NCBI GenBank assembly: GCA_030609965.1
Contig: JAUWSQ010000004.1
Span: forward strand, 1-64,000
Length of the DNA stretch: 64,000 bases
Direction of reading: 5' to 3'
Source of the DNA: Candidatus Fermentibacterota bacterium
GTDB lineage: Bacteria > Fermentibacterota > Fermentibacteria > Fermentibacterales > JCC-6
Shown: in pieces, positions 41,562 through 54,638 of the stretch
How positions within the stretch are numbered: the stretch's first letter is position 1
How the letters are laid out: each line of letters begins with the position of its first letter
Notes under the pieces: model-generated
Databases searched by the model: none
Told to the model about the DNA's origin: nothing
Seen by the model: only the letters and a program-made list of their open reading frames with translations
Translations under genes and position numbers: made by a program

Positions 41562-44348
41562 ATGATTTCAGGAGCCATTTGCGCGGTAATCATAGGTTCT
41601 GGTTTCCCCGGCCTCGAAAGCAGGGCAGATTACCTGATGGATGTGCGGCTTGAACCTGATTCGAGCATGATCTTCGGACATTCTGAGATACTGTTTACAA
41701 ATGGTGTCGATTTTCCTGTTGATACTCTCTGGCTCCACCTTTATCCAAATGCCTACAGGGATATCTCAACTGCCTTCGGTCAGGATCTAGAAGCTGTTGG
41801 ACGTTATCATTTCAGGGCATCTCCCGAATCCGAGAAGGGCTGGATAGACCTTTGCGGCTGGAGCCTGAACGGGAACCCGGTCGATATTTCCGTAGACGGA
41901 TGTCTTGGTTTCATAAACCTTGATTCCCCCCTTGGTCCCGGAGAAACCGCGCTGCTTCAGGGTGACTTTATCGTAAAGGTGCCCAGCTTCTGGAGCAGGA
42001 TGGGGCACCTGGGAGATACGTACCAGATCACACAATGGTATCCCAAGATGTGTGTTCTTGATGAGAATGGATGGCACAGAGGAAGGTATCACTGGAGGGG
42101 AGAGTTCTATAGCGATTTTGGCGATTACTCGATAATTCTGGATATCCCGGAGAACTTCATTACCGCCGCTACCGGATCTGTCGAAAGCGTTTCATTTTCT
42201 GAAGACTCTCTGAGGAGAATCGAAACATGGAAAGCGGACAATGTTCATGATTTCGCCTGGTCCTCAAGCCCGGATTATACGGTAAGGGAGTATACCTACG
42301 TTTATCCTGAACGTCTGGGTGCAGATTCGATAAATGTGCACCTTGTTCTTCTGGACGATAATGAGGAACACTGGTCGGATGTACCTGCTGTTATCGATTC
42401 CACACTGCTTTACTACGGGGAGTGGTATGTACCTTATCCCTACGATGACCTTTGGGTTGTTGAACCGGTACTTCTGATGGCCGGTGGTATGGAGTACCCC
42501 CAGTTTGTGTTTTCCGCTGTAGAGGTGCCGATGACAAGAGCCCTTGAGATGGTCACATCGCATGAAATAGGACACCAGTGGTTCTATGGTATGCTGGGAA
42601 ACGATGAAGTTGATGAAGCCTGGCTTGACGAAGGGATGAATACCTTCAGCGAACTTCGCTACATGCAGAGGAGACACGGTTTTCCCGGGAATATGTCCAC
42701 AACCCCCGACTGGATCATGGAGATAAGCGATCAGGATATCAGCCTCATGACGTACGTCACCGGTACAGCTGTAGAAAAAGTTCCCGTGCTCAGCGACGCA
42801 ACATCAGCCGGAGACGGCAGCCATCCCACCGGGTTCACCTACTATTCAAAACCGGCCTTTTTTCTCAGGATGCTTCAGCGTCAGGTTGGAGATGAGGATT
42901 TTGACAGGATAATGTTCATATACTTCGACCGTTTCATGTTCCACCATCCCCATACAGATGATTTTCAGGCTGTTGTGGAGGAAGTTACCGTTCGATCATG
43001 GGAGGTGGAATTCGATTTCTGGCTCAGGGGAACCGGGAATGCTGACGTGCGGGTTGAGCGCTTGGAAGAATCGGATAGTTCAACGATGGCGGTAGTAGCA
43101 GGTGATGTGCCACATGAAGTGAAACTTGACCTGCTTTTTCTTTCAGGAAACGATTCCCTTCTTACCGAATTCACACTTGCACCTGGAACCGCTGATACAG
43201 TAACCGTACCCGGCAGCTGGAATTCGGTTATTGCTGACCCGTTCCTCTGCATGCCCGACAGGGCTCCATGGAACAATGCTCTGCCGCCATTGAGCCAGAT
43301 AAAACCGATGCTGCTTCCGTTTCCCAGACCCACCCATCACAGCCTGTGGGTTCTGCCTTTCCCGTCGTATGCTGCAGGTTCCTGGAGAGCGGAGATCCTG
43401 TGCATGTCCGCTGCTGTTCCTTCATATATGGGCGGCCCATACACATGGTCGGCCTTCGCATCCGTCCCCTTCGAAAGCGGGAATTTTTCTTCATGGGGAG
43501 CCGCTTTCCATGCTCCGCTTTTCAGGGAATACCGCAGGAGCGTGTACCTCTCCACCGGGATCTCCAGGGGATACGGAACAGGCAGTGCCAGCCTGGGTGC
43601 GGACTGTTTCATGGGAGGACGAGTGCCAACGGATACTAAATTCAATATTGCTTGTAACCTCGAGCTTTTCAGCGTGGAGGACACCACGGTTTACGGAGGC
43701 TGCAATGTTGAGGAAGGAAGCGGGTTTGAATTCTCAGCAGGATTTTCAGCCGCTGATCGAAACTACGGTGTATCATGGAAAAACAGTTTGAACGCACTGG
43801 CTTCCCCCGGATGGAATGACGGTCCATACGCACGGATGGATGGTGAACTCAATATCACGCAAAGGATTACCGGCAGTTACCTCACACGAATCAGGATTTA
43901 CGCAGGCAGAATTGCAGGAGATGCTCCCGCTCACGTTTTCCTCAGACCGGGAGGAGGGCTTTTCGCAGGCGGCATAACCGGAGCGTTTCTGCCGCCGGAT
44001 GGTTTACTGTCCCCACAGGAACACTACTACGTGCGATCCGGTCCTGCCCTGCCCGGCTACTTGAACAGTCCCGTCCGGGGAAGAGCGGCTGTATCGATCG
44101 AGCAGAGGCTGCCGATTCCGTTTCTTTTTCTTCCCGTTGAAGTATTCGGGGGTGCAGGCTGGATTGCGGATGGTTTCAGTGATTTTTCCGAGGACACTTT
44201 TCTTGCGAACGGAGGATTTGCTGTAAGGATCGCTATGCTGGAAGCATTGTTTCCGATCTGGGTATCGGATCCCGTTGATGGCGAGAACAACTGGGAATTC
44301 CGGTGGCGGATAGGATTGTCACCGGCAGGCTTCCCTGATCTGTACTGA
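41562..44348 (+). CDS. M1-family metallopeptidase with C-terminal outer-membrane-barrel-like region
   Basis: A 928-residue exported peptidase. After a short hydrophobic N-terminus come the M1 N-terminal beta domain, the GGMEYP exopeptidase-type motif (308-313), the zinc site HEIGH (334-338) and the distant glutamate in LDEGM (Glu357, 19 residues after the second His). Residues about 560-928 are beta-rich, with alternating strands (SVYLSTGISRGYGTGSASLGADCF; AAVSIEQRLPIPFLFLPVEVFGGAGW) that resemble an Omp85/surface-antigen barrel. AAGGAGG precedes the ATG. It follows the second cyclase by 30 bp and may be co-transcribed. The fused barrel-like part is unusual and inferred from sequence pattern only. 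Confidence 0.85.
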   Translation: MISGAICAVIIGSGFPGLESRADYLMDVRLEPDSSMIFGHSEILFTNGVDFPVDTLWLHLYPNAYRDISTAFGQDLEAVGRYHFRASPESEKGWIDLCGWSLNGNPVDISVDGCLGFINLDSPLGPGETALLQGDFIVKVPSFWSRMGHLGDTYQITQWYPKMCVLDENGWHRGRYHWRGEFYSDFGDYSIILDIPENFITAATGSVESVSFSEDSLRRIETWKADNVHDFAWSSSPDYTVREYTYVYPERLGADSINVHLVLLDDNEEHWSDVPAVIDSTLLYYGEWYVPYPYDDLWVVEPVLLMAGGMEYPQFVFSAVEVPMTRALEMVTSHEIGHQWFYGMLGNDEVDEAWLDEGMNTFSELRYMQRRHGFPGNMSTTPDWIMEISDQDISLMTYVTGTAVEKVPVLSDATSAGDGSHPTGFTYYSKPAFFLRMLQRQVGDEDFDRIMFIYFDRFMFHHPHTDDFQAVVEEVTVRSWEVEFDFWLRGTGNADVRVERLEESDSSTMAVVAGDVPHEVKLDLLFLSGNDSLLTEFTLAPGTADTVTVPGSWNSVIADPFLCMPDRAPWNNALPPLSQIKPMLLPFPRPTHHSLWVLPFPSYAAGSWRAEILCMSAAVPSYMGGPYTWSAFASVPFESGNFSSWGAAFHAPLFREYRRSVYLSTGISRGYGTGSASLGADCFMGGRVPTDTKFNIACNLELFSVEDTTVYGGCNVEEGSGFEFSAGFSAADRNYGVSWKNSLNALASPGWNDGPYARMDGELNITQRITGSYLTRIRIYAGRIAGDAPAHVFLRPGGGLFAGGITGAFLPPDGLLSPQEHYYVRSGPALPGYLNSPVRGRAAVSIEQRLPIPFLFLPVEVFGGAGWIADGFSDFSEDTFLANGGFAVRIAMLEALFPIWVSDPVDGENNWEFRWRIGLSPAGFPDLY

Positions 44349-44364: not shown

Positions 44365-44616
44365 GTGAAAACTGTTCTGTTAATCGTTTTGTTTCTGGTC
44401 TGTTCAGCTTTTGCTGAAGGAGAGGACTCTCTCTCAAAGAGTGACAGCACGGATGCCGGTCTGTTCGAGCTGATCATGGAATTAACCGGCAGTACCGGAC
44501 GTTTCTGGGCTAAACCGATTGAATGTGTGGATATGGACCGAATTCTGGAACTTATGGAGAGTGGTTTCCTTTCTTTCCATAAAGCCGACTGGTATGCGGT
44601 AGTGGATGATGAGTAA
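44365..44616 (+). CDS. Small secreted protein
   Basis: An 83-residue protein with a signal peptide (1-17, VLLIVLFLVCSAFA) and an acidic mature part containing one Cys (PIECVDMDRILELMESGF). The start is GTG at 44365 behind AAGGGGG. It overlaps the start of amrS by 11 bp, so it belongs to the AmmeMemoRadiSam transcription unit. I recognise no family. Confidence 0.65.
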   Translation: MKTVLLIVLFLVCSAFAEGEDSLSKSDSTDAGLFELIMELTGSTGRFWAKPIECVDMDRILELMESGFLSFHKADWYAVVDDE

Positions 44617-45601
44617 TTCGGTTCAGTGTGTTTTATGCCCGCATCTGTGCATCCTTTCTCCTGGTGAGCGCGGAAGGTGCAGTGTCAGGCTCAATTTGGG
44701 CGGTGAACTGATCAGCCTTGTGTACGGCCGGCCCGTTGCCGTCCACATCGATCCTGTGGAGAAGAAACCTCTATTTCATTTCATACCTGGAATTGATGTG
44801 TTCTCAATTGCGACGGCAGGCTGTAATCTGAAGTGCGAATTCTGCCAGAACTGGGAGATATCCCAGGCTGCTCCTGAGGATTTAACACCATATGACATGC
44901 CTCCTGAAGTGGTTGTAGAAAATGCTCTGGCCCATGGCTGTGAAGCGATCGCGTATACCTACACTGAACCGGTAGTGTACTTCGAATACACAAGGGACTG
45001 TGCCAGGCTGGCCCGTGAAGCGGGAATCAAGAACATCCTTGTTACCGCAGGTTACATTAACAGAGGCCCTCTATCCGAGCTGCTGGAATATGTGGATGCT
45101 GCAAACGTGGACCTCAAATCAATGTCCGATACTTATTACAGGAATGTCTGTGGAGGAACTTTGCAGCCTGTGCTTGATACGATTATTCAAATGAAGGAAT
45201 CGGGCACCTGGATTGAAATCACGAATCTTATCGTACCAATGTTGAACGATGATCCTGATGAAATTGACTCTCTTGCCCGGTGGGTGTTAGAATACACCGG
45301 CTGCGATACACCGCTTCATTTTTCGAGGTTCTTTCCCATGTACAGGCTCACGGACCTGCCCCCAACACCTCTTGATATTCTCCAGGGAGCGAGAGAAAGA
45401 GCCAGTGATATCGGCCTCAATTACGTTTATGTGGGGAATGCTGTTACTTCCGAAGGTACACTGACAAAGTGTCCCGAATGCGGTGAGATACTCGTAGTAA
45501 GACATGGTTACATGATAATGGAGAATAATATTCTGAATGGAAACTGCAGGAATTGTTCAGCCCCGATAGCAGGGGTCTGGGATGGAATGGAGGAGCAGTG
45601 A
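44606..45601 (+). CDS. amrS: AmmeMemoRadiSam system radical SAM enzyme
   Basis: A radical SAM protein of 331 residues matching AmrS. Four N-terminal cysteines (C8, C11, C15, C25) precede the SAM cluster motif CNLKCEFC (73-80). ETISQ-like and AYTYTEP (substrate-binding), VTAGYI and NVDLKS follow. A C-terminal pair of CxxC units (KCPECGE and CRNCSAP) suggests a zinc ribbon. The AmmeMemoRadiSam system pairs this enzyme with MEMO and AMMECR1 proteins; its substrate is unknown. The ATG overlaps the preceding gene and the stop overlaps the next GTG. Confidence 0.93.
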   Translation: MMSNSVQCVLCPHLCILSPGERGRCSVRLNLGGELISLVYGRPVAVHIDPVEKKPLFHFIPGIDVFSIATAGCNLKCEFCQNWEISQAAPEDLTPYDMPPEVVVENALAHGCEAIAYTYTEPVVYFEYTRDCARLAREAGIKNILVTAGYINRGPLSELLEYVDAANVDLKSMSDTYYRNVCGGTLQPVLDTIIQMKESGTWIEITNLIVPMLNDDPDEIDSLARWVLEYTGCDTPLHFSRFFPMYRLTDLPPTPLDILQGARERASDIGLNYVYVGNAVTSEGTLTKCPECGEILVVRHGYMIMENNILNGNCRNCSAPIAGVWDGMEEQ

Positions 45602-45771
45602 AGAAGAAAATAACCAGGCGAAGGTTTCTGTCAGGCGTGTTAATGCTGTTTTTTTCGGCAGTCGCTACAGCTTGCAGCTCTGAATTAAGCTGCAAGAACA
45701 GCACTGACAAGCCCGTGATTGGAAGAACCTCCAGGAAAAAGGCTGATTACGCAAGGGAGCTTGCAGGATGA
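45598..45771 (+). CDS. Tiny twin-arginine lipoprotein in the AmmeMemoRadiSam locus
   Basis: A 57-residue product from GTG at 45598, which overlaps the amrS stop (GTGA). It has a twin-arginine-type start (TRRRFLSG, residues 6-13), a hydrophobic stretch and a lipobox ending ATAC with Cys26. The mature part is only about 32 residues and basic (RTSRKKADYARELAG). Its stop overlaps the start of the next gene by 4 bp. It could be a remnant of a longer protein, but its coupling on both sides argues for real translation. Confidence 0.6.
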   Translation: MKKKITRRRFLSGVLMLFFSAVATACSSELSCKNSTDKPVIGRTSRKKADYARELAG

Positions 45772-47246
45772 GAATACTTGCACTTACATCCGTTTTTCTG
45801 ATTGCATGTGGAGGTAATTCCCCTGCACAGGAAGGAACCGCGGATAGCGGCGGCATGTTGAGACCGCCGGCAGTGGCGGGAAGATTCTATCCTGGAGATT
45901 CAGCTACATTAGGGACTATGGTTGACAGCCTGCTTGACATCTCTCTGATGCAGCACCCTGCTGCAGGTGTGATAGCGGGAGTAGTTCCCCATGCGGGATA
46001 CGTGTTCAGTGGTGCTACCGCTGCCGACTTTTACAGCTCCATTGAAGGCGTTGATTACGATGTCGTTGTACTTATCGGACCTTCTCACAGGGTCTCATTC
46101 AACGGATTCTCCGTTTTCGAGGGAAACGGGTACCTTACTCCACTTGGCGATGTTTCAGTGGCGACTGAAATCGCGCAGCGGCTAAGGGAATCGCATCCTT
46201 CAGTCAGCTTCGTTCCCGAGGCTCACGAATCCGAACACTGCCTTGAAGTGCAGCTTCCCTTTCTTCAGAAAGTGCTTCCGTCCGGTTTCAGAATTGTGCC
46301 GATCGTGGTGGGCAATACCGGGCCCGATGAACTTAGATACATGGCGGAACTGATACTTGCGGAGTCCTTCGATAAGCGGATTCTTGTAATCGCAAGCAGC
46401 GACCTCTCCCATTTCCCGACAAGAGAATTGGCGGAAGAGGTGGATCTACTTACAGTTGAGGCCATACTGGATGGAGATATGGACAGTTTTCTTGAAACCA
46501 CTTCAGCTGACCTGACACCCCGTGGACTTGATACATTTGCCTGCGGAAGATTTCCCATCGCACTTGTCATGTCCTATTCAGCACTCTATCCGGATGTGAC
46601 TCCGGAGCTGCTTTCCATGACTACCAGCGCGGAATTTTCTGGCGACGATTCGGAGGTGGTGGGATATGCTTCAATTTTATTTGAAACACCTGCATTCGAA
46701 CCCTCCGAATGGAATATTTCCCCCGAAGCCATTGATATTCTTCTGGAGATTGCAGCCTCATCCGTCCGTTGTGCAGTTGAAGGCGAGAATTACAGCCTGC
46801 CCGATTCACTCCCCGGTGAACTTGAGGTTCCAAGAGGAGCATTCGTTACGCTTACAAGTAACGGACATCTCAGAGGGTGTATAGGGTCGATGCGTCCGAT
46901 CAGTCCCCTTGCGGAAACGGTAATGTTTATGGCCCGTTCCGCAGCACTTGAGGATCCCCGCTTCATACCTGTGACAGCGTCGGAGCTGCAGGATCTGGAG
47001 TACGAAATATCGGTGCTTACTCCGCTGCAGATCCTTGATGACTGGCGGAATGTTGTGGTGGGCACCGATGGCCTGCTGATCTCGGATCCGAGAGGAAGGT
47101 CCGGTGTACTGCTGCCTCAGGTTCCCCTGGAGCAGGATTGGAACAGAGTGGAGTTCATGGAAGGTGTTTGCCTGAAGGCGGGAATGGACCGGAATGCATA
47201 CCTGGGGAATGTAACCCTTTACCGTTTTCAGGCTCAGGTTTTCTGA
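45768..47246 (+). CDS. AmmeMemoRadiSam proteins B and A fused: exported MEMO-AMMECR1 lipoprotein
   Basis: A 492-residue lipoprotein with a lipobox LIAC (Cys14). Residues about 30-300 are the MEMO (AmrB) domain, with the expected metal/active-site residues His75 (VPHAGYVFSG), His107 (GPSHRVSF) and Cys259 (TFACGRFPI). Residues about 320-492 are the AMMECR1 (AmrA) domain, with GAFVTLTSNGHLRGCIGSM and the C-terminal FMEGVCLKAGM. In most genomes these are separate cytosolic proteins; here they are fused and exported. The radical SAM partner upstream has no signal peptide. Confidence 0.93.
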   Translation: MRILALTSVFLIACGGNSPAQEGTADSGGMLRPPAVAGRFYPGDSATLGTMVDSLLDISLMQHPAAGVIAGVVPHAGYVFSGATAADFYSSIEGVDYDVVVLIGPSHRVSFNGFSVFEGNGYLTPLGDVSVATEIAQRLRESHPSVSFVPEAHESEHCLEVQLPFLQKVLPSGFRIVPIVVGNTGPDELRYMAELILAESFDKRILVIASSDLSHFPTRELAEEVDLLTVEAILDGDMDSFLETTSADLTPRGLDTFACGRFPIALVMSYSALYPDVTPELLSMTTSAEFSGDDSEVVGYASILFETPAFEPSEWNISPEAIDILLEIAASSVRCAVEGENYSLPDSLPGELEVPRGAFVTLTSNGHLRGCIGSMRPISPLAETVMFMARSAALEDPRFIPVTASELQDLEYEISVLTPLQILDDWRNVVVGTDGLLISDPRGRSGVLLPQVPLEQDWNRVEFMEGVCLKAGMDRNAYLGNVTLYRFQAQVF

Positions 47247-47250
47247 GAAG

Positions 47251-49290
47251 ATGGAAACACCTTCTCGAAGCGAAAAAACATCTCTTTCCAGCCTTTCCAT
47301 TTTCGCTGGAGGACTCCTTTCCATCCTGGTTCAGGCGATCGTACTCAGGGAATCACTTTTCGGCCGCCACCAGGCGGAACTCACTACTGGAATAGTTCTT
47401 GCCGCATGGATAATCGGATCAGGCCTCGGTGCTGCAGCGGGTGGCAGAACTTCAAGGCACCGATTGTTCTGGATAGCCGGAATAGTCATTCTACCGATTC
47501 TGGGGTTTCTTCAGATTGCGGCATCAAGGACAGGTATACTGCCTCTGGCATTAACAGTGCTTCCTGCCGGATTCACTGCCGGTGTTGTGTTCATACAGCC
47601 CTTTGCCTTTGACAGGCCGGGCAGAGTCTATGCTCTTGAAGCGCTGGGGGCTGCAGCAGGTGGGGGAATTTTTGTCCTTTTTTCACCTTATCTTCTTGCA
47701 GGTGAACTGCTGGGGATATCAATTCTCTTCTCAATCATCGGTCTTCTGGCGTGCAGGAGTATTGTTCCCGGTCTGATACTTACTGTTATTCTGTTTGTAT
47801 CTCAGCTATTATCCATTCCGGAGGATTTCAGCAGACATCTTGGATCGATGGCTTTTTGCAACTACGAAAATGTACAGATTTATCCCTCTCCCTACGGAGA
47901 AGTGGTTACAGCTTCCAGAAGAGGCCAGCATGTTGTATTCAGGAGCGGACTGCTTTCCGCAACATGGCCTTCTCTTGAATCAGCGGAGCAAACCGTAATT
48001 GTTCCACTTGCTGCTTCTCTCCCCTGCGCAGTACTGTATATCGGTTCATCTCCTGAAGAAGCGGGAATAATAACCAGCTGGCCCGGGGTTGACCGCTGTG
48101 TTACGGTTGTTCCCGAGAGGACACTGACTGAAGTGATTGAATATCCGGGTGAGATAGGAATAGGTGACGGTCGGCAGTACCTGGCAGATGATACTCTTTT
48201 GTACGATCTCATTATCGTTTCTGCAGGCCAGCCCCTTACGCTTCTATCAAATCGTTTTTATACCGCTGAGTTTATGAAACTCCTTGCCGGAAGGCTTACC
48301 CCCGAAGGCATAGCCTGCATACACCTTTGGGGTGGAACAAACAGGCTGCATCCCCTTGAGGCGGAACTGGCCCGTTCCGTTGCGCTGGCTTCAGAAAACT
48401 GTTTCCAATGGAACAGGATCATTCCCATTTCAGGCCTTTTGCTTATGGTTGGGAACGGCTCGGAACCATCCTTTGAAGGAGGATTACTGGCCGGAAGATT
48501 GGACTCCCTGGGAGTTGCGGGACTGTACGTTAATTCAGGTACTCTTCCATACGATCTTTCAGAATTCCGAACAGCTGCCTTCGATGAGCAGATTGTCGCT
48601 TCAGATGCGGAAACCAACACGGATCTACACCCTGAGGGCTTCAGAATAGCGCATGAGTTGTGGGATTTCAGAATGAACGAAGAGGGAAAAACTGATCTGA
48701 CCATCCCCGCTGTCGGCCTGTTCTTGCTGATAATGGTAGCTGCTGCATTGCTTTCAGGTAAGCCGTTAACTTCTCTGGGGGTTGCGGCTGCCGGGTTTAC
48801 AGGACTTTCCGTTGAAGTGATTACCCTGGTATCGATTCAGGCGGCAACCGGTTATTCATGGGTGCTTGTAGGGGCAGTTACGGGAATATTCATGACGGGC
48901 TGCGCTCTTGGCGCCTTCTGGACAGATAAGGGATTAATGAGAAATCCGGCCAGGATCATTGCCCTGTCTGGAATGGCAGCCTTCTTCAGCGCAGTCGTCC
49001 TCCAACTTTACAGTATCGGTTTTTGTGGCGGGTTCTTTCTAGCACTATGTCTTCTTTTTGGAACGTTTGTTTGTGGAGTTTCAAGTGGCGGGATATTCCC
49101 AAACGCCGCAAGAGTTCTGGGAGCCGGCAGTACTGGAAAAATTGGTCTCCTGGACCTAGCAGAGCATGGAGGAAGTGCAGCCGCTTCGCTTCTTATGCCT
49201 CTTGTTCTGTTCCCCCTGCTTGGTGCTGTGAATGTTCTGTTGATAGCCACCGCATGGATTGCGATCTGGATAATTGTTCATCCGCGTTAG
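47251..49290 (+). CDS. Membrane protein with spermidine-synthase-like domain
   Basis: A 679-residue protein with about seven N-terminal helices, a central soluble domain (about 210-430) and about six C-terminal helices. The central domain follows the spermidine synthase fold (AVLYIGSS, IGDGRQYLADDTLLYDLIIV, FYTAEFMKLLAGRLTPEGIACIHLW) but the SAM glycine motif is GSS instead of GGG and the catalytic aspartate segment reads VSAGQP. It is probably not a working aminopropyltransferase. The start is 4 bp after the fused MEMO-AMMECR1 gene, so it belongs to the same operon. Confidence 0.85.
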   Translation: METPSRSEKTSLSSLSIFAGGLLSILVQAIVLRESLFGRHQAELTTGIVLAAWIIGSGLGAAAGGRTSRHRLFWIAGIVILPILGFLQIAASRTGILPLALTVLPAGFTAGVVFIQPFAFDRPGRVYALEALGAAAGGGIFVLFSPYLLAGELLGISILFSIIGLLACRSIVPGLILTVILFVSQLLSIPEDFSRHLGSMAFCNYENVQIYPSPYGEVVTASRRGQHVVFRSGLLSATWPSLESAEQTVIVPLAASLPCAVLYIGSSPEEAGIITSWPGVDRCVTVVPERTLTEVIEYPGEIGIGDGRQYLADDTLLYDLIIVSAGQPLTLLSNRFYTAEFMKLLAGRLTPEGIACIHLWGGTNRLHPLEAELARSVALASENCFQWNRIIPISGLLLMVGNGSEPSFEGGLLAGRLDSLGVAGLYVNSGTLPYDLSEFRTAAFDEQIVASDAETNTDLHPEGFRIAHELWDFRMNEEGKTDLTIPAVGLFLLIMVAAALLSGKPLTSLGVAAAGFTGLSVEVITLVSIQAATGYSWVLVGAVTGIFMTGCALGAFWTDKGLMRNPARIIALSGMAAFFSAVVLQLYSIGFCGGFFLALCLLFGTFVCGVSSGGIFPNAARVLGAGSTGKIGLLDLAEHGGSAAASLLMPLVLFPLLGAVNVLLIATAWIAIWIIVHPR

Positions 49291-49340: not shown

Positions 49341-51272
49341 CTAGTTGGCGATGCTTAGTACCACAAATTCCACGCGACGGTTGAGTGCCTTGTTGGCTTC
49401 GGAAGTGTTGGGAGCTGCCGGCCTATTCTCTCCATAACCAATTGTGGAAAGACTTGATGCACTCACACCGTGGTCGACAAGGTAGTCGAAAACAGCTTTT
49501 GCTCTGTTTTCACTGAGGGTCTGGTTGTACTCCTCGGTGTAATCATCGTCAGCGTATCCGCCTATCTGCACATTCAGACCGTTGGCGATAATATTCTCAG
49601 CAATAGCTTCCAGGATGGATGTGTACTCTGACTGGATGTTGTACTGGTTGACGATGAAGTAGATCGGCTCGAGTGCGGCGGACTGAAGCTGGAAGTCCAG
49701 GGCGACAAGGTCACCGCTGAGGACATCCACGGTCTCGGAGGCACCGAGGTAACCGGCAGCCGCAGCAGAGACGGTCCAGCTGCCTTCGTCGACATTAATT
49801 TCATAAAGACCATCTGTGCCGGTGCGGTCACTGGCAGCAGGGTCATCAGTTGCTGTGACGGTTGCACTGGAAATAGCGATACCTGTCTCTATATCGGTAA
49901 CGCTACCCATTACAGTACCAGGCTCGGGCTGCAGGGCAAAGTTCCTGCTGAAATCCGCGCCACCCTCTACCTGCACTGTTTCGCTTGCACCGATGTAGCC
50001 GGGTGCGTTTACGGCAACTGATACGTTACCTTCGGGAAGTTCGGCAGAGTAGAAGCCCGTTCCAGGATCTGAAGCTGCTGATTCCGTAGCGGTACCGGGG
50101 AATGCCACAGTACCTTCAAGTGCTTCACCGGTGAGGGCGTCGGTAACTGTTCCTGACATGATCGCTTCACCTGGAGCGGCTGCGATGCTGCCGGAATACA
50201 TAAGGTTCACACCAACGCCCCAGGAGGGATAGTAACCCTCGGGGAAGGGTGCGAAGTCTGCTCTGGTTTCGTTAGTGGGAGTTCCACCATTCTGGTATAT
50301 ATGATGTCCCAGATCGCTCCACTCCGGATCAAATGTATCTAATCCAAATGCTCCCACTACATCGCATGAGAACGCTGAAGTGATAGGGAATCTAAGCCCC
50401 GGCTGAATGATGATCATGTCATCGTATCTCTCACCGTTACCATCTTCGTAGTCGCGATCAAGGAAGTGACGCCATTCAGCTTCTGCGAACAGTGTCAATC
50501 CGTCCATGGGATATTCGATTCCCATGGCTACATGGAGGACCGGATCCTCAACATCCATGTCGACATCTACAGAATCGCCTGTTCCATACCTGACATCGGT
50601 GAACTGGAAGTTCTGCTTGAAGTAATGGTATCCAAGATTTGCATGTAATACAACCGGGTGCAAATCCAAGGATGCAAGAAGGTCTGCACCTGCTGAGAAA
50701 TTCGAACCTATCATCGGACGGCGCATTTCGAACATTGGCTGTTCCGGATACCAGACACCATCGAACTGGTTGTAGTTTGTTACGTAGGGACTATCGCCAC
50801 CTTCGTAAATACCGAAACCAACCCATGGCATTATTCCGATAACAAAGTCGCTTTCAGGATTGAAAGAGTACTTCAGGAAGAAATTGGCTTCGCTGAAGCC
50901 GTCATCGTTTTCGTTCTGACCACCAACAAGATCCTGTCGGCCTTCGACTTCATCGCGGGAGAGACAGTTCCATACATAGGAAACTCTTCCCGCAATTTCG
51001 ATTTTTTCACTGAGTCCTACACCTGCTGTGATGTACCATGTACCGTTATACTCGGTATCGGTGACATCCTGGGCTCCTCCTGAAAGCTGAGCGGTTCTCG
51101 TATCGTTGCTCACTCCGAGAAAGGAGAAAAGTGCGATTGAGAATTCACCCGATCCTATTGGCTTAGCATCAACTGTGCGGTTGAGACCTCGAAGGCCCGA
51201 ATAGGATGGCAGTGCAAGAACAGTGCCTGATATCAGAAGAAGAGCAGCAAAAATAAGCATCCCTTTTCTCAT
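49341..51272 (-). CDS. Outer membrane protein with barrel, two carboxypeptidase-regulatory-like domains and OmpA domain
   Basis: A 643-residue outer-membrane protein. Residues 1-20 are a signal peptide; about 25-360 form a beta-rich barrel-like region; two CarboxypepD_reg-like repeats follow (GTVTDALTGEALEGTVAFPG and GSVTDIETGIAISSATV, each ending with an APGYIGAS-type loop); the C-terminal OmpA peptidoglycan-binding domain has IGGYADDDYTEEYNQTLSENRAKAVFDYL and GYGENRP...NRRVEFV. AAAGGGA eight bases before the ATG at 51272 decides the start over a longer open frame. It likely anchors the outer membrane to peptidoglycan. Confidence 0.9.
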   Translation of the reverse strand: MRKGMLIFAALLLISGTVLALPSYSGLRGLNRTVDAKPIGSGEFSIALFSFLGVSNDTRTAQLSGGAQDVTDTEYNGTWYITAGVGLSEKIEIAGRVSYVWNCLSRDEVEGRQDLVGGQNENDDGFSEANFFLKYSFNPESDFVIGIMPWVGFGIYEGGDSPYVTNYNQFDGVWYPEQPMFEMRRPMIGSNFSAGADLLASLDLHPVVLHANLGYHYFKQNFQFTDVRYGTGDSVDVDMDVEDPVLHVAMGIEYPMDGLTLFAEAEWRHFLDRDYEDGNGERYDDMIIIQPGLRFPITSAFSCDVVGAFGLDTFDPEWSDLGHHIYQNGGTPTNETRADFAPFPEGYYPSWGVGVNLMYSGSIAAAPGEAIMSGTVTDALTGEALEGTVAFPGTATESAASDPGTGFYSAELPEGNVSVAVNAPGYIGASETVQVEGGADFSRNFALQPEPGTVMGSVTDIETGIAISSATVTATDDPAASDRTGTDGLYEINVDEGSWTVSAAAAGYLGASETVDVLSGDLVALDFQLQSAALEPIYFIVNQYNIQSEYTSILEAIAENIIANGLNVQIGGYADDDYTEEYNQTLSENRAKAVFDYLVDHGVSASSLSTIGYGENRPAAPNTSEANKALNRRVEFVVLSIAN

Positions 51273-51311
51273 AGTAACATTCCCTTTCTGTGTGAGTTCG
51301 ATGAACGAGGA

Positions 51312-51340
51312 AATATGTAAATCCATACTGCATATGTCAA
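51312..51340 (-). promoter_or_regulatory. Candidate promoter for the OmpA-family gene
   Basis: On the minus strand TTGACA (51335-51340) is followed after 17 bp by CATATT (51312-51317), about 40 bp before the start codon, in a very AT-rich region. Confidence 0.45.
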
Positions 51341-51560
51341 TATAGATATTATACACATTAGTATATATAATAAATAATAATTCATACATATTTTCGCTTT
51401 TGACAGATGCAGATATGCAGCCACAGCTGAATTGCTTGTCATTTGTCACTGTTTTCACAACCCTGGATGTTCGTTTGATTCACAATCTGAATTCCTTATA
51501 TTGACACCTGGCAGTTCAGATGTGTCCGGCTTCTTCAAGATCGAATTTTGGGAGAACTGA

Positions 51561-54500
51561 ATGTCACATGATTTTGGATCCATCCTGAGAGACAGACTTA
51601 CCCGGTATAGAGGGGCATCGGACCCTGTAGCTGAAGAGAGAGGAGAGCTGAAGCCGGGTGAGCGGCGGGACATAGCCGTTCTTTTTCTGGACCTTGAAGG
51701 GTTCACTTCCCTGTCAGAGAAACTGGATCATGAAGCAGTTCACGATATCACCCTTGGAATCATGGATGCCCTGGTTGATGTTACACAGCGATTCGGTGGA
51801 TACGTTGACAAGATCGAAGGTGACAGGATAATGGTTCTCTTCGGCGCCAGACAGGCAGGGGAGAATGACAGTACAAGGGCGGTTTCATCCGGGTTCATGA
51901 TGCTCGATACAATTCTGGCGGCAAATGAGATCCTTTCCGATAACGGTATCTCCATCACTGCCAGGATAGGGATCAACAGCGGTCCGGTAACTGTAGCTCC
52001 CGATGCCATCGGTCATCTTACCGCTATGGGGAGAACGGTTAACCTTGCTTCCCGTATGGAGGGGGCTGCCCGGGCCAACACCATTCTGGTACCGGATACG
52101 TTTTATGAGAAGTGCAGGGATCAATTCAGCTGGAAAAACTTGGGAGATATCAAACTGAAAGGTATCAGCAATCCTGTCAGTGCATGGCGTCCCACTGGTT
52201 CCATATCCACAAGCAGGCCTCGCTGGGAACGAGTATCCACTATTTGCAGCTCAGGGTTCGTTGGAAGGACAGCTGAACTGATCAGACTGAAGAAGAAACT
52301 GCTTGATCAGAAATCCCTGAGCACAGGCGAAAGTCGTCTTGGTGGAGTAAAGCACATCGTCCTGGGCATTAAGGGTGAGGCTGGAATTGGAAAATCCCGC
52401 CTTATTCATGAATTCATTCAGCAGCATTGTGGTGATGATGAGAATCTTACTGTTTTAAAAGGTCAGGCTCTTTCATTTGCTCAGCCTGCTTACTCCCTCT
52501 GGACAGGTCTTCTTCGCAATCTGCTTGATATTGAAAAGGATTGCAGATTGGATTACGATGAATTCAGGAAGAAGATCCTCATTCTCAGTGATGAGAAGGA
52601 ATTGAGGGATTCAGTACCTTTCCTGGCTGAACTCCTGTCTATCAGATCCGGTGATAGAAGGCTGGCTGAACTGGACAGCAAAGCTATAGCCCTTGAAACC
52701 AGAATAGCCTTCAGGAATCTTCTCAAGGCTATGGCCGGCAAAAAACATCTTATTGTTGTCCTTGATGATCTTCATTGGATTAATCCTTCATGCCGCAATG
52801 TACTGGAATTCATCATCGGCAACTGTACTACAGAAAGACCGATTGTTTTTCTTCTGATCTACAGGCCCGAGAGGGATGATGGCAGGATGGTGGAGTTCGA
52901 TATTATGCTCATCTACGCTGAGTTGGATGAAATAGCCCTCTCCAGTATCGACGAACAGGCCAGCCGTGACATAATCATGAGGATGCTTTCGTGCATTAGT
53001 TCCAGTGGAACCGGGAAAACCTCCCCGAAAGTAGAAGAGTTTTTCATGAAGCATTCCCGAGGTAATCCATTCTTCCTTGAGGAGCTCATCCTCGATCTCT
53101 TTGAATCGGATCTGCTGAATGAAAGCAAAGGACAATGGGTGTTCAACAGCCCGATCAGTGAGATTTACATACCTTCATCGCTGACAGGACTGCTTCAGTC
53201 GAGAGTTGACCGCCTGTCCGATGAATTGAAAGGCGTCCTTCAAAAATCCTCAGTACTGGGAGTCGAATTCCAGGTGAAACTGTACAGTCGGCTTGCTTTA
53301 GAACTTTCGCTGGATGAAAACAGCAGATCCATTTTTGGCAACCTGGAGCGCAGGCAGTTCCTTATTGGCAGAGGAACAGCATTCGAGCAGAAGTACGCGT
53401 TCCGGCACATTCTTATACGTGACACTGCATACAGCAGTATACTGGAGAGCAACAGGAAGATTCTTCACAGGATCACAGCTGGTCTGATCGAGGAGATGTA
53501 CCCCGACGACGAGCAGGAAATCGCTGATATTCTTGCACACCACTGGGAAAGAGCCGATAAACGGGATAAAGCGATTCAATGGGGTATTATCAGCTTGATG
53601 TACACTGTGCAGACTTACCAGCATGAAAAGGTTCTGGAATTGACCGAAAAGCTTGAATCCTGGATATTGCAGGAGACTCTGGACGAAGAAAGCAGCCAGA
53701 AACTGCTTCAGGTAATGATGTTCAGAGTTGAAACTCTCGATATTCTTGGCAGGAGAAAAGAGCAGGAGCAGTTGCTCCTGAGAATGGTCGAAATCGCTGA
53801 TACTTATGAAGTATATACCTGGCAGGGAAAAATACAGACCTTTCTGGGAAGCGTATTCAGAATCACAGGCCGTATGGATGAAGCTGGAAAGTGTTACTTT
53901 AAGGCACTTAAGAGCCATCAAAGTTTGGGCAATCGTCAACAGGAAAGTATGGTTTTCTGCAATCTGGCTATTCTCGGCAGAATACAGGGCAGAATGGATG
54001 AAGCCCGCGAGCATTTTGAGAAAGCGCTGCACCTTAACCGCGAAGAGGGTGACCGCAAAGTGGAAGGTGTTCTGCTTGGAAATCTCGGGAACCTCTACTT
54101 CGATCAGGGCCGGATTGATAAAGCCATTGAGTGCTACGAAAAAGTTCTGGAGATAACCAGGGAGACGGGGGACAGAAGGAGTGAGGGAATCGCCCTTGGA
54201 AATCTCGGAAATCCATATATGTCAGGGGATGATACTGAACAGGCGCTGATTTACTACAATCAGGCGCTAGAACTGCATAGAGAAATAGGCAACCGCACAA
54301 GTGAAGGAATAACACTTGGAAACCTTGGAGAACTCTATTCCCGGATTGATCAATTACAGCAATCCGGGGAATGTCACAGAAATGCTCTTGAGATACACCT
54401 TGAAGTTGGTAACCGCAGGCTTGAAGCCTTTACTCGTTATTCTTTAGCATCACTTGGAATGAAGCAGGATGATCATGCCGGAGCACTGAAGTATTATAAG

Positions 54501-54638
54501 GACGCTCTCTCTATTATTGAAGAACTTGAACTCACGATTACTGTATATGACGGTATGGCTGAACTTCGAAACAGCCTGCTTTCCTGTGGCTTTTCTGAAA
54601 TTGAAGTTGCCTGGCCCCGGCATTGGGCAAACCCTTAG
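51561..54638 (+). CDS. Class III cyclase-ATPase-TPR protein 3 (single cyclase domain, altered specificity residue)
   Basis: A 1025-residue cytosolic protein. One class III cyclase domain (about 35-200) retains both metal aspartates, Asp44 (LFLDLEGF) and Asp88 (KIEGDR), the nucleotide lysine Lys84, and the transition-state pair Asn161 and Arg165 (TVNLASR). The residue that normally reads the base, Asp in GD-VN, is Arg158 (MGRTVN). An ATPase domain follows (FVGRTAEL, P-loop GEAGIGKS, VVLDDLHWI) and then TPR repeats with the recurring REIGNR/REEGDR pattern. The enzyme is expected to act as a homodimer. ATG at 51561 follows GGGAGAACTGA. It is divergent from the OmpA-family gene. Confidence 0.87.
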   Translation: MSHDFGSILRDRLTRYRGASDPVAEERGELKPGERRDIAVLFLDLEGFTSLSEKLDHEAVHDITLGIMDALVDVTQRFGGYVDKIEGDRIMVLFGARQAGENDSTRAVSSGFMMLDTILAANEILSDNGISITARIGINSGPVTVAPDAIGHLTAMGRTVNLASRMEGAARANTILVPDTFYEKCRDQFSWKNLGDIKLKGISNPVSAWRPTGSISTSRPRWERVSTICSSGFVGRTAELIRLKKKLLDQKSLSTGESRLGGVKHIVLGIKGEAGIGKSRLIHEFIQQHCGDDENLTVLKGQALSFAQPAYSLWTGLLRNLLDIEKDCRLDYDEFRKKILILSDEKELRDSVPFLAELLSIRSGDRRLAELDSKAIALETRIAFRNLLKAMAGKKHLIVVLDDLHWINPSCRNVLEFIIGNCTTERPIVFLLIYRPERDDGRMVEFDIMLIYAELDEIALSSIDEQASRDIIMRMLSCISSSGTGKTSPKVEEFFMKHSRGNPFFLEELILDLFESDLLNESKGQWVFNSPISEIYIPSSLTGLLQSRVDRLSDELKGVLQKSSVLGVEFQVKLYSRLALELSLDENSRSIFGNLERRQFLIGRGTAFEQKYAFRHILIRDTAYSSILESNRKILHRITAGLIEEMYPDDEQEIADILAHHWERADKRDKAIQWGIISLMYTVQTYQHEKVLELTEKLESWILQETLDEESSQKLLQVMMFRVETLDILGRRKEQEQLLLRMVEIADTYEVYTWQGKIQTFLGSVFRITGRMDEAGKCYFKALKSHQSLGNRQQESMVFCNLAILGRIQGRMDEAREHFEKALHLNREEGDRKVEGVLLGNLGNLYFDQGRIDKAIECYEKVLEITRETGDRRSEGIALGNLGNPYMSGDDTEQALIYYNQALELHREIGNRTSEGITLGNLGELYSRIDQLQQSGECHRNALEIHLEVGNRRLEAFTRYSLASLGMKQDDHAGALKYYKDALSIIEELELTITVYDGMAELRNSLLSCGFSEIEVAWPRHWANP

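Follow-up and report, generated by a model that had tools for sequence, protein, structure and literature searches.

We analyzed a window of 64,000 nucleotides from a Candidatus Fermentibacterota bacterium (contig JAUWSQ010000004.1, positions 1 to 64,000), focusing on a locus of the AmmeMemoRadiSam system on its + strand (44365-49290). Here five genes follow one another with ends that overlap or almost touch: sec83, encoding an 83-residue protein with a Sec signal; the gene for the radical S-adenosylmethionine (SAM) enzyme AmrS; tat, encoding a 57-residue protein with a twin-arginine translocation (Tat) motif; a gene in which the AmrB (MEMO) and AmrA (AMMECR1) domains are fused; and a gene for a membrane protein. 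The stop codon of sec83 overlaps the AmrS start (ATGATGAGTAA), the AmrS/tat and tat/fusion junctions read GTGA and ATGA, and a 4-base gap separates the fusion from the membrane protein gene; the five genes are translationally coupled. About 15 sister genomes share the order M1 peptidase - sec83 - AmrS - tat - fusion - membrane protein, so the locus is not a chance assembly, and the junctions and conserved order bear out the gene set described in a first-pass annotation made from the sequence alone. The locus is real and conserved, and it belongs to an exported branch of AmmeMemoRadiSam that is widespread. What is new about it is less the fusion than the evidence for AmrS going with it, with a targeting segment encoded apart in the window clade.

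The three families of the system are encoded together, each above its curated cut-off. The fusion scored 253.4 bits against TIGR04336 (AmrB; cut-off 26; residues 32-305) and 158.3 bits against TIGR04335 (AmrA; cut-off 99; residues 324-492), with Pfam placing Memo at 34-303 and AMMECR1 at 327-492. AmrS scored 374.8 bits against TIGR04337 (cut-off 220), and its Radical_SAM domain (PF04055, E 4.6e-21) and CxxxCxxC motif place it in the radical SAM superfamily. The metal ligands of human MEMO1 are H49, H81 and C244 (PMC11081632), and His75, His107 and Cys259 of the fusion align with them. These residues and the AMMECR1 motif LRGCIG are invariant in an alignment of ten diverse exported fusions. The metal site is intact, as the first-pass annotation stated. 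Catalytic and metal residues are thus present as in the known system, from which the window locus differs in that its A and B parts are fused and predicted to be exported, its AmrS is truncated, with the N-terminal segment apparently carried by separate small exported proteins, and a membrane protein is linked to it. The AlphaFold model of the fusion was too poor for a fold search (predicted local distance difference test, pLDDT, 44).

The fusion had been annotated as exported with its own lipobox, and this held up. The lipobox Cys is conserved in all 17 Fermentibacterota-type copies, and genome searches found Lgt, Lsp and TatC; with a conserved signal and both processing enzymes in the genome, the fusion ranks as a lipoprotein, its lipidation being predicted. 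Two TatC genes lie in the window's genome (G000:C28:1800-2414 and G000:C51:172153-172767), and one in each of six relatives searched.

Fusion and export are not unique to the window locus; they are common. Among the AMMECR1 matches listed (290 genomes), many lie in open frames of 460-600 residues. We took about 65 fused loci for comparison, outside the window's order mostly one per family, and called signals by a heuristic scan of the N-terminus for hydrophobicity and motifs rather than with SignalP. A hydrophobic N-terminal signal was found in 60 of 67 fused genes (dozens of bacterial families) versus 3 of 22 stand-alone MEMO genes; without the window's order (Fermentibacterota), the counts were 43/50 and 3/12 (Fisher p = 8e-5). 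In sister genomes, stand-alone MEMO starts directly at the domain (e.g. M-I-R-K-P-V-V-A-G) and a separate AMMECR1 gene adjoins it, whereas fused MEMO-AMMECR1 starts with a lipoprotein signal such as MRILTLTSVFLIACGG. We therefore distinguish two sets, one cytosolic and one exported. The former, a cytosolic AmrS with stand-alone AmrA/AmrB, occurs partly in the same genomes as the latter. The window's genome carries a second AmrS on another contig (L059; G000:C5:8454-9395), 42-43% identical, signal-less and placed in the cytosolic clade; no AmrA or AmrB match was found within 13 kb around it. Other MEMO arrangements were also seen: locus L084 (G099:C1:913500-925500) has two fused MEMO-AMMECR1 genes in tandem, one being the C-terminal part of a 1732-residue open frame, and L069, L070 and L073 show a different architecture, a MEMO domain with an unidentified N-terminal extension of about 100-160 residues and no AMMECR1 domain.

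Most cytosolic AmrS proteins open with MKEAxxYEKL (or a variant of it) and then V-x-C; they carry no signal. We refer to this stretch as the KEAxYYxxL segment, as seen on cytosolic and Tat forms; it is not a published criterion. Beside exported fusions in other phyla, the segment is usually preceded either by a Tat signal (L055, L058, L077 (MANKVLDRRKFLKYTGAG...), L096, L098, L104, L118, L171) or by a membrane or Sec anchor (L082, L085, L086, L093, L099), and where the exported fusion lies elsewhere in the genome AmrS also mostly carries a Tat signal or anchor. The charge pattern of the anchors is N-in in most cases; in L082, L093 and several Tat open reading frames (ORFs) as many basic residues follow the helix as precede it. 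A third group, to which the window copy belongs, has neither signal nor segment, and its core begins right at V-x-C (4-5 residues before it in the window copy). In the readable loci of this group, AmrS is followed directly by a small Tat ORF (16 Fermentibacterota-type loci and L078, L081, L090, L100, L107, L115, L167 and L172) and, in most of them, preceded directly by a small ORF with a Sec signal or membrane anchor. On a tree of 77 AmrS cores, the targeting labels (cytosolic, Tat, membrane-anchored, split), set by eye and partly resting on signal presence, need 12 changes versus 41.5 in shuffles; the split form is nearly one clade, with one Tat form (L058) inside. The first-pass annotation had AmrS in the cytosol, cut off from its exported partners. 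Given the Tat signals and N-in anchors of AmrS beside exported fusions, and the small Tat ORF that nearly always follows where AmrS has no signal, this separation is probably wrong. We also rejected decay of the exported set, because all AmrS, exported and cytosolic, keep CxxxCxxC (seven confirmed from the printed sequences, not by the script's stricter pattern) and the fusions keep their MEMO ligands.

Where, then, is the segment that the window AmrS lacks? The tail of sec83 (LMESGFLSFHKADWYAVVDDE) resembles it, weakly in the window copy alone and more clearly in relatives. The window tat reads ITRRRFL...TSRKKADYARELAG, and Tat ORF tails read RKKADYYRELAG in many Aegiribacteria and RRAMYYRKLAG (L057), HEARWYRKIR (L100), HPARFYQKL (L107), KEARFYRTL (L115) or KEAYFYKRI (L167) in other loci; the aromatic position accepts Y, W or F. 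Scored by a shuffle test against a profile built only from AmrS N-terminal segments, Tat ORF tails matched in every lineage tested except the window copy (p <= 0.013, most <= 0.005), and the upstream protein's tail matched in six non-Fermentibacterota lineages (p 0.0005-0.03). In three loci (L078, L081, L115) the Tat module and the AmrBA ORF form a single reading frame. These resemblances most readily suggest that the two small genes encode the N-terminal targeting part of AmrS, split off from its core.

Other origins of the small genes were rejected. Nonsynonymous rates (dN) lie well below synonymous rates (dS) for both, indicating purifying selection and not chance ORFs. Nor are sec83 and AmrS one frameshifted gene: adding sec83 leaves the TIGR04337 score at 374.7 versus 374.8 for AmrS alone, and relatives have them in separate frames. 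The 57-residue product had been called a twin-arginine lipoprotein; the twin-arginine protein stands, while the lipoprotein does not, as the lipobox Cys occurs in the window copy only and relatives read AAAGG or similar. The protein resembles the formate dehydrogenase region TAT target (TIGR02811), likewise small with a Tat signal and a short conserved tail, but membership was rejected: only the relative L044 scores (16.2 bits versus a cut-off of 48.45), and the window copy gives no score.

The fifth gene had been annotated as a membrane spermidine-synthase-like protein. A membrane gene with the layout of that family, transmembrane (TM) - spermidine-synthase fold - TM, is indeed present, but its product has no match to PF01564 or any other family in the Pfam scan and lacks the catalytic Asp; with 19.0 bits against speE (TIGR00417; cut-off 249.55) and a SAGQP motif, it does not qualify as a spermidine synthase. 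The helix pattern suggests, at low confidence, a polytopic protein, and the AlphaFold model was too poor for a fold search (pLDDT 34). Membrane- or MFS-fused spermidine synthases (NF037959, PRK03612) share the layout, and relatives of our protein in other phyla match PF01564. The linked copies differ from them in the first, catalytic Asp, which is replaced in nearly all (NLPDP, NVPDP, SAGQP; L110 reads IDGPDP). The nucleotide-binding acid (VELDP) is kept in most copies outside Fermentibacterota; within Fermentibacterota this motif is also degenerate. Outside Aegiribacteria, 13 loci have the protein within several kb of the exported AmrS or the fusion, and it also lies beside unlinked AmrS in G249, G042 (second copy), G224, G188 and G284, while none was found in stand-alone MEMO-AMMECR1 loci of sister genomes. 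It is a recurrent fourth partner of the system. A part for it in handling SAM, or what SAM is turned into, at the membrane is speculative.

Additional genes accompany exported AmrS in other lineages. In several families, DUF362 (PF04015) proteins with Tat-like N-termini lie between or beside Tat-AmrS and the fusion (L096:2105-3106 and L118:5697-6773 by Pfam, L104:4069-5136 by clustering), and membrane 4Fe-4S polyferredoxin-like genes (NapH-like, by motif only) lie by exported AmrS (L077:7953-9533, L090:1304-2638, L115:7433-8914). Both could be electron suppliers. In two related genomes, the exported fusion is separated from the anchored AmrS by SIMPL/DUF541 proteins (L082:4359-5117, L093:6267-7827).

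Table 1. Features of the AmmeMemoRadiSam locus and its upstream neighbour in the window.
Feature	Position	Strand	Evidence
sec83, 83-aa Sec-signal protein, GTG start	44365..44616	+	Sequence; tail compared with AmrS segment
AmrS core, AmmeMemoRadiSam radical SAM enzyme	44606..45601	+	TIGR04337, 374.8 bits
AmrS CxxxCxxC [4Fe-4S]/SAM motif (CNLKCEFC)	44822..44845	+	Sequence
tat, 57-aa twin-arginine protein	45598..45771	+	Sequence, relatives' copies
AmrB-AmrA (MEMO-AMMECR1) fusion, predicted lipoprotein, 492 aa	45768..47246	+	NCBIfam, Pfam, lipobox
Fusion lipobox LIAC (Cys14)	45798..45809	+	Sequence; Cys kept in Fermentibacterota-type copies
MEMO domain; ligands His75 (45990), His107 (46086), Cys259 (46542)	45867..46676	+	Pfam, alignment
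AMMECR1 domain with LRGCIG motif	46746..47243	+	Pfam, alignment
Polytopic membrane protein, degenerate spermidine-synthase-like domain	47251..49290	+	NCBIfam, motifs, neighbourhoods
M1-type exported peptidase, upstream neighbour conserved in Aegiribacteria only	41562..44348	+	Pfam, gene order

What the sequences show is a fusion with signals, a division from the cytosolic set, small proteins that occur where AmrS is truncated, and a motif match. On this basis we favor, by a modest balance of probability, a model in which the locus encodes a wholly extracytoplasmic, membrane-bound AmmeMemoRadiSam, its AmrS core exported via Tat with the detached segment. Location, binding in trans, Tat hitch-hiking and activity outside are all predictions of this model. 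The MEMO-AMMECR1 fusion would leave through Sec and be lipidated at Cys14, as its conserved lipobox suggests. AmrS would receive its clusters in the cytoplasm and then be carried out through Tat, a route suited to an enzyme that acquires its iron-sulphur clusters before it is exported. AmrS itself includes the Tat signal or anchor in many phyla, joined to the KEAxYYxxL segment that leads into the catalytic core. In the window clade this N-terminal piece would have become detached, so that the core begins at V-x-C and the missing segment sits at the C-terminus of the downstream Tat protein and, less clearly, of the upstream Sec or membrane protein. Through this segment the small Tat protein would bind the AmrS core and take it along as a hitch-hiker; the upstream protein would keep the core at the outer face of the membrane. 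Once outside, AmrS would work with the Fe-site MEMO and AMMECR1 domains of the lipoprotein on a membrane-surface substrate.

Hydrogenases and formate dehydrogenases are established cases in which Tat also exports a partner that has no signal of its own (PMC10924467). In these complexes (NiFe hydrogenases, formate dehydrogenase), a cofactor-bearing subunit without a signal is exported with a partner that has a Tat signal. The system proposed here would differ in its cargo, a radical SAM enzyme, and in its partner, a short peptide bearing the N-terminal segment of that enzyme. We infer the hitch-hiking of AmrS on the window Tat protein from gene adjacency, the motif match and distribution. A more elaborate version, to which we give a slim chance, would place a radical SAM enzyme outside the cytoplasm in many phyla, with SAM supplied or spent cofactor removed by the co-conserved SAM-type-fold membrane protein, electrons coming from linked membrane ferredoxins, and, in the window clade, Tat export in trans.

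Several points weigh against the extracytoplasmic model. The localization of both AmrS and the fusion is predicted, and neither SAM nor a low-potential reductant has a known route outside the cytoplasm. In the window itself, the Tat tail KKADYAREL has lost the key aromatic residue (p 0.04-0.07) and the sec83 tail is not significant on its own in the profile shuffle test. The h-region of the Tat ORF in Fermentibacterota is more hydrophobic than in most Tat-AmrS and some Tat ORF tails are basic, so the ORF could be a plain membrane peptide. The genomes and the labels of the AmrS tree were of our own choosing, and L079, with an atypical radical SAM gene, is an exception to the pattern. A further exception, L039 (Prevotellaceae), pairs a lipoprotein fusion with an AmrS without signal and with no Tat ORF in the sequence examined. 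Such a pairing would suit an AmrS that acts in the cytoplasm on a substrate exported later, the lipoprotein fusion acting outside; the substrate would be the small Tat protein or sec83, a peptide with a Y/W motif resembling ribosomally synthesized and post-translationally modified peptides (RiPPs). The lack of a signal on window-type AmrS and the small exported proteins on either side of it agree with this, and loci for peptide processing contain radical SAM domains that are relatives of those in Memo-Ammecr1 systems (PMC7159879). However, non-split AmrS carries the shared segment at its own N-terminus, so the segment looks like a piece of the enzyme and not like a substrate; the aromatic position in it is permissive, and sister AmrS carry the Tat signal directly. 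We regard this exported-substrate model as unlikely, though a genuine contender.

The supply of SAM and electrons would be solved if the small proteins tethered AmrS with its core on the cytoplasmic side, the signals only docking it at the membrane opposite the lipoprotein while the spermidine-synthase-like protein passes the substrate across. The anchors that are as basic after the helix as before (L082, L093, several Tat ORFs) and the polytopic helix pattern of the membrane partner would fit such a tether. Most anchors are N-in/C-out by charge, however, and the RRxFL motifs of Tat-AmrS, followed by weakly hydrophobic cores, point to true Tat export, which makes this arrangement distinctly unlikely in our view. 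Finally, the fusion's N-terminus may not be a working lipoprotein signal at all, leaving the whole system cytosolic like the classical set. Lipoprotein processing is predicted only, and about seven fusions in other phyla have no recognisable signal in the same scan, a point that also tells against our model. Set against this are the lipobox in 17/17 Fermentibacterota-type copies, stand-alone MEMO starting at the domain in the same genomes, and the presence of Lgt and Lsp; we consider an entirely cytosolic system very improbable.

The window genome, 81% complete, is close to Candidatus Aegiribacteria, with proteins 77-79% identical in Aegiribacteria and Sabulitectum metagenome-assembled genomes. 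The genus Aegiribacteria belongs to the FCB group in the NCBI taxonomy, and the phylum is named Fermentibacterota. Downstream of the locus, on the opposite strand, lies a gene (49341-51458, -) for an OmpA-type outer membrane protein with carboxypeptidase-regulatory-like repeats, assigned by eye, which is a conserved neighbour in Aegiribacteria. It is followed by an adenylate cyclase - AAA ATPase - tetratricopeptide repeat protein (51561-54638, +) that resembles TOMM system kinase/cyclase proteins and scores below the cut-off of that family (211.9 versus 705.75 bits).

Our literature search found no text on an exported AmmeMemoRadiSam; Burroughs et al. 2019 (J Biol Chem 294:10211) lay outside its coverage. 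That work reportedly treats Memo-Ammecr1 systems with the same domain trio in conserved gene neighbourhoods, and is said to propose that they modify nucleotide bases and isoprenoids. Of these, isoprenoid modification would suit a system at the membrane surface, and the novelty of our findings depends on whether secreted fusions or a split AmrS were described there.

MEMO and AMMECR1 are conserved up to humans, and their function is unknown. With an exported, membrane-tied version of the system, the range of possible substrates narrows: tRNA and cytosolic metabolites give way to molecules of the membrane or surface. This version also brings in a recurrent fourth partner. An AmrS that is indeed outside would overturn the view of radical SAM chemistry as strictly cytoplasmic and raise the question of how SAM and electrons reach the enzyme. 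The pairing of cytosolic and exported sets in one genome makes this question testable.

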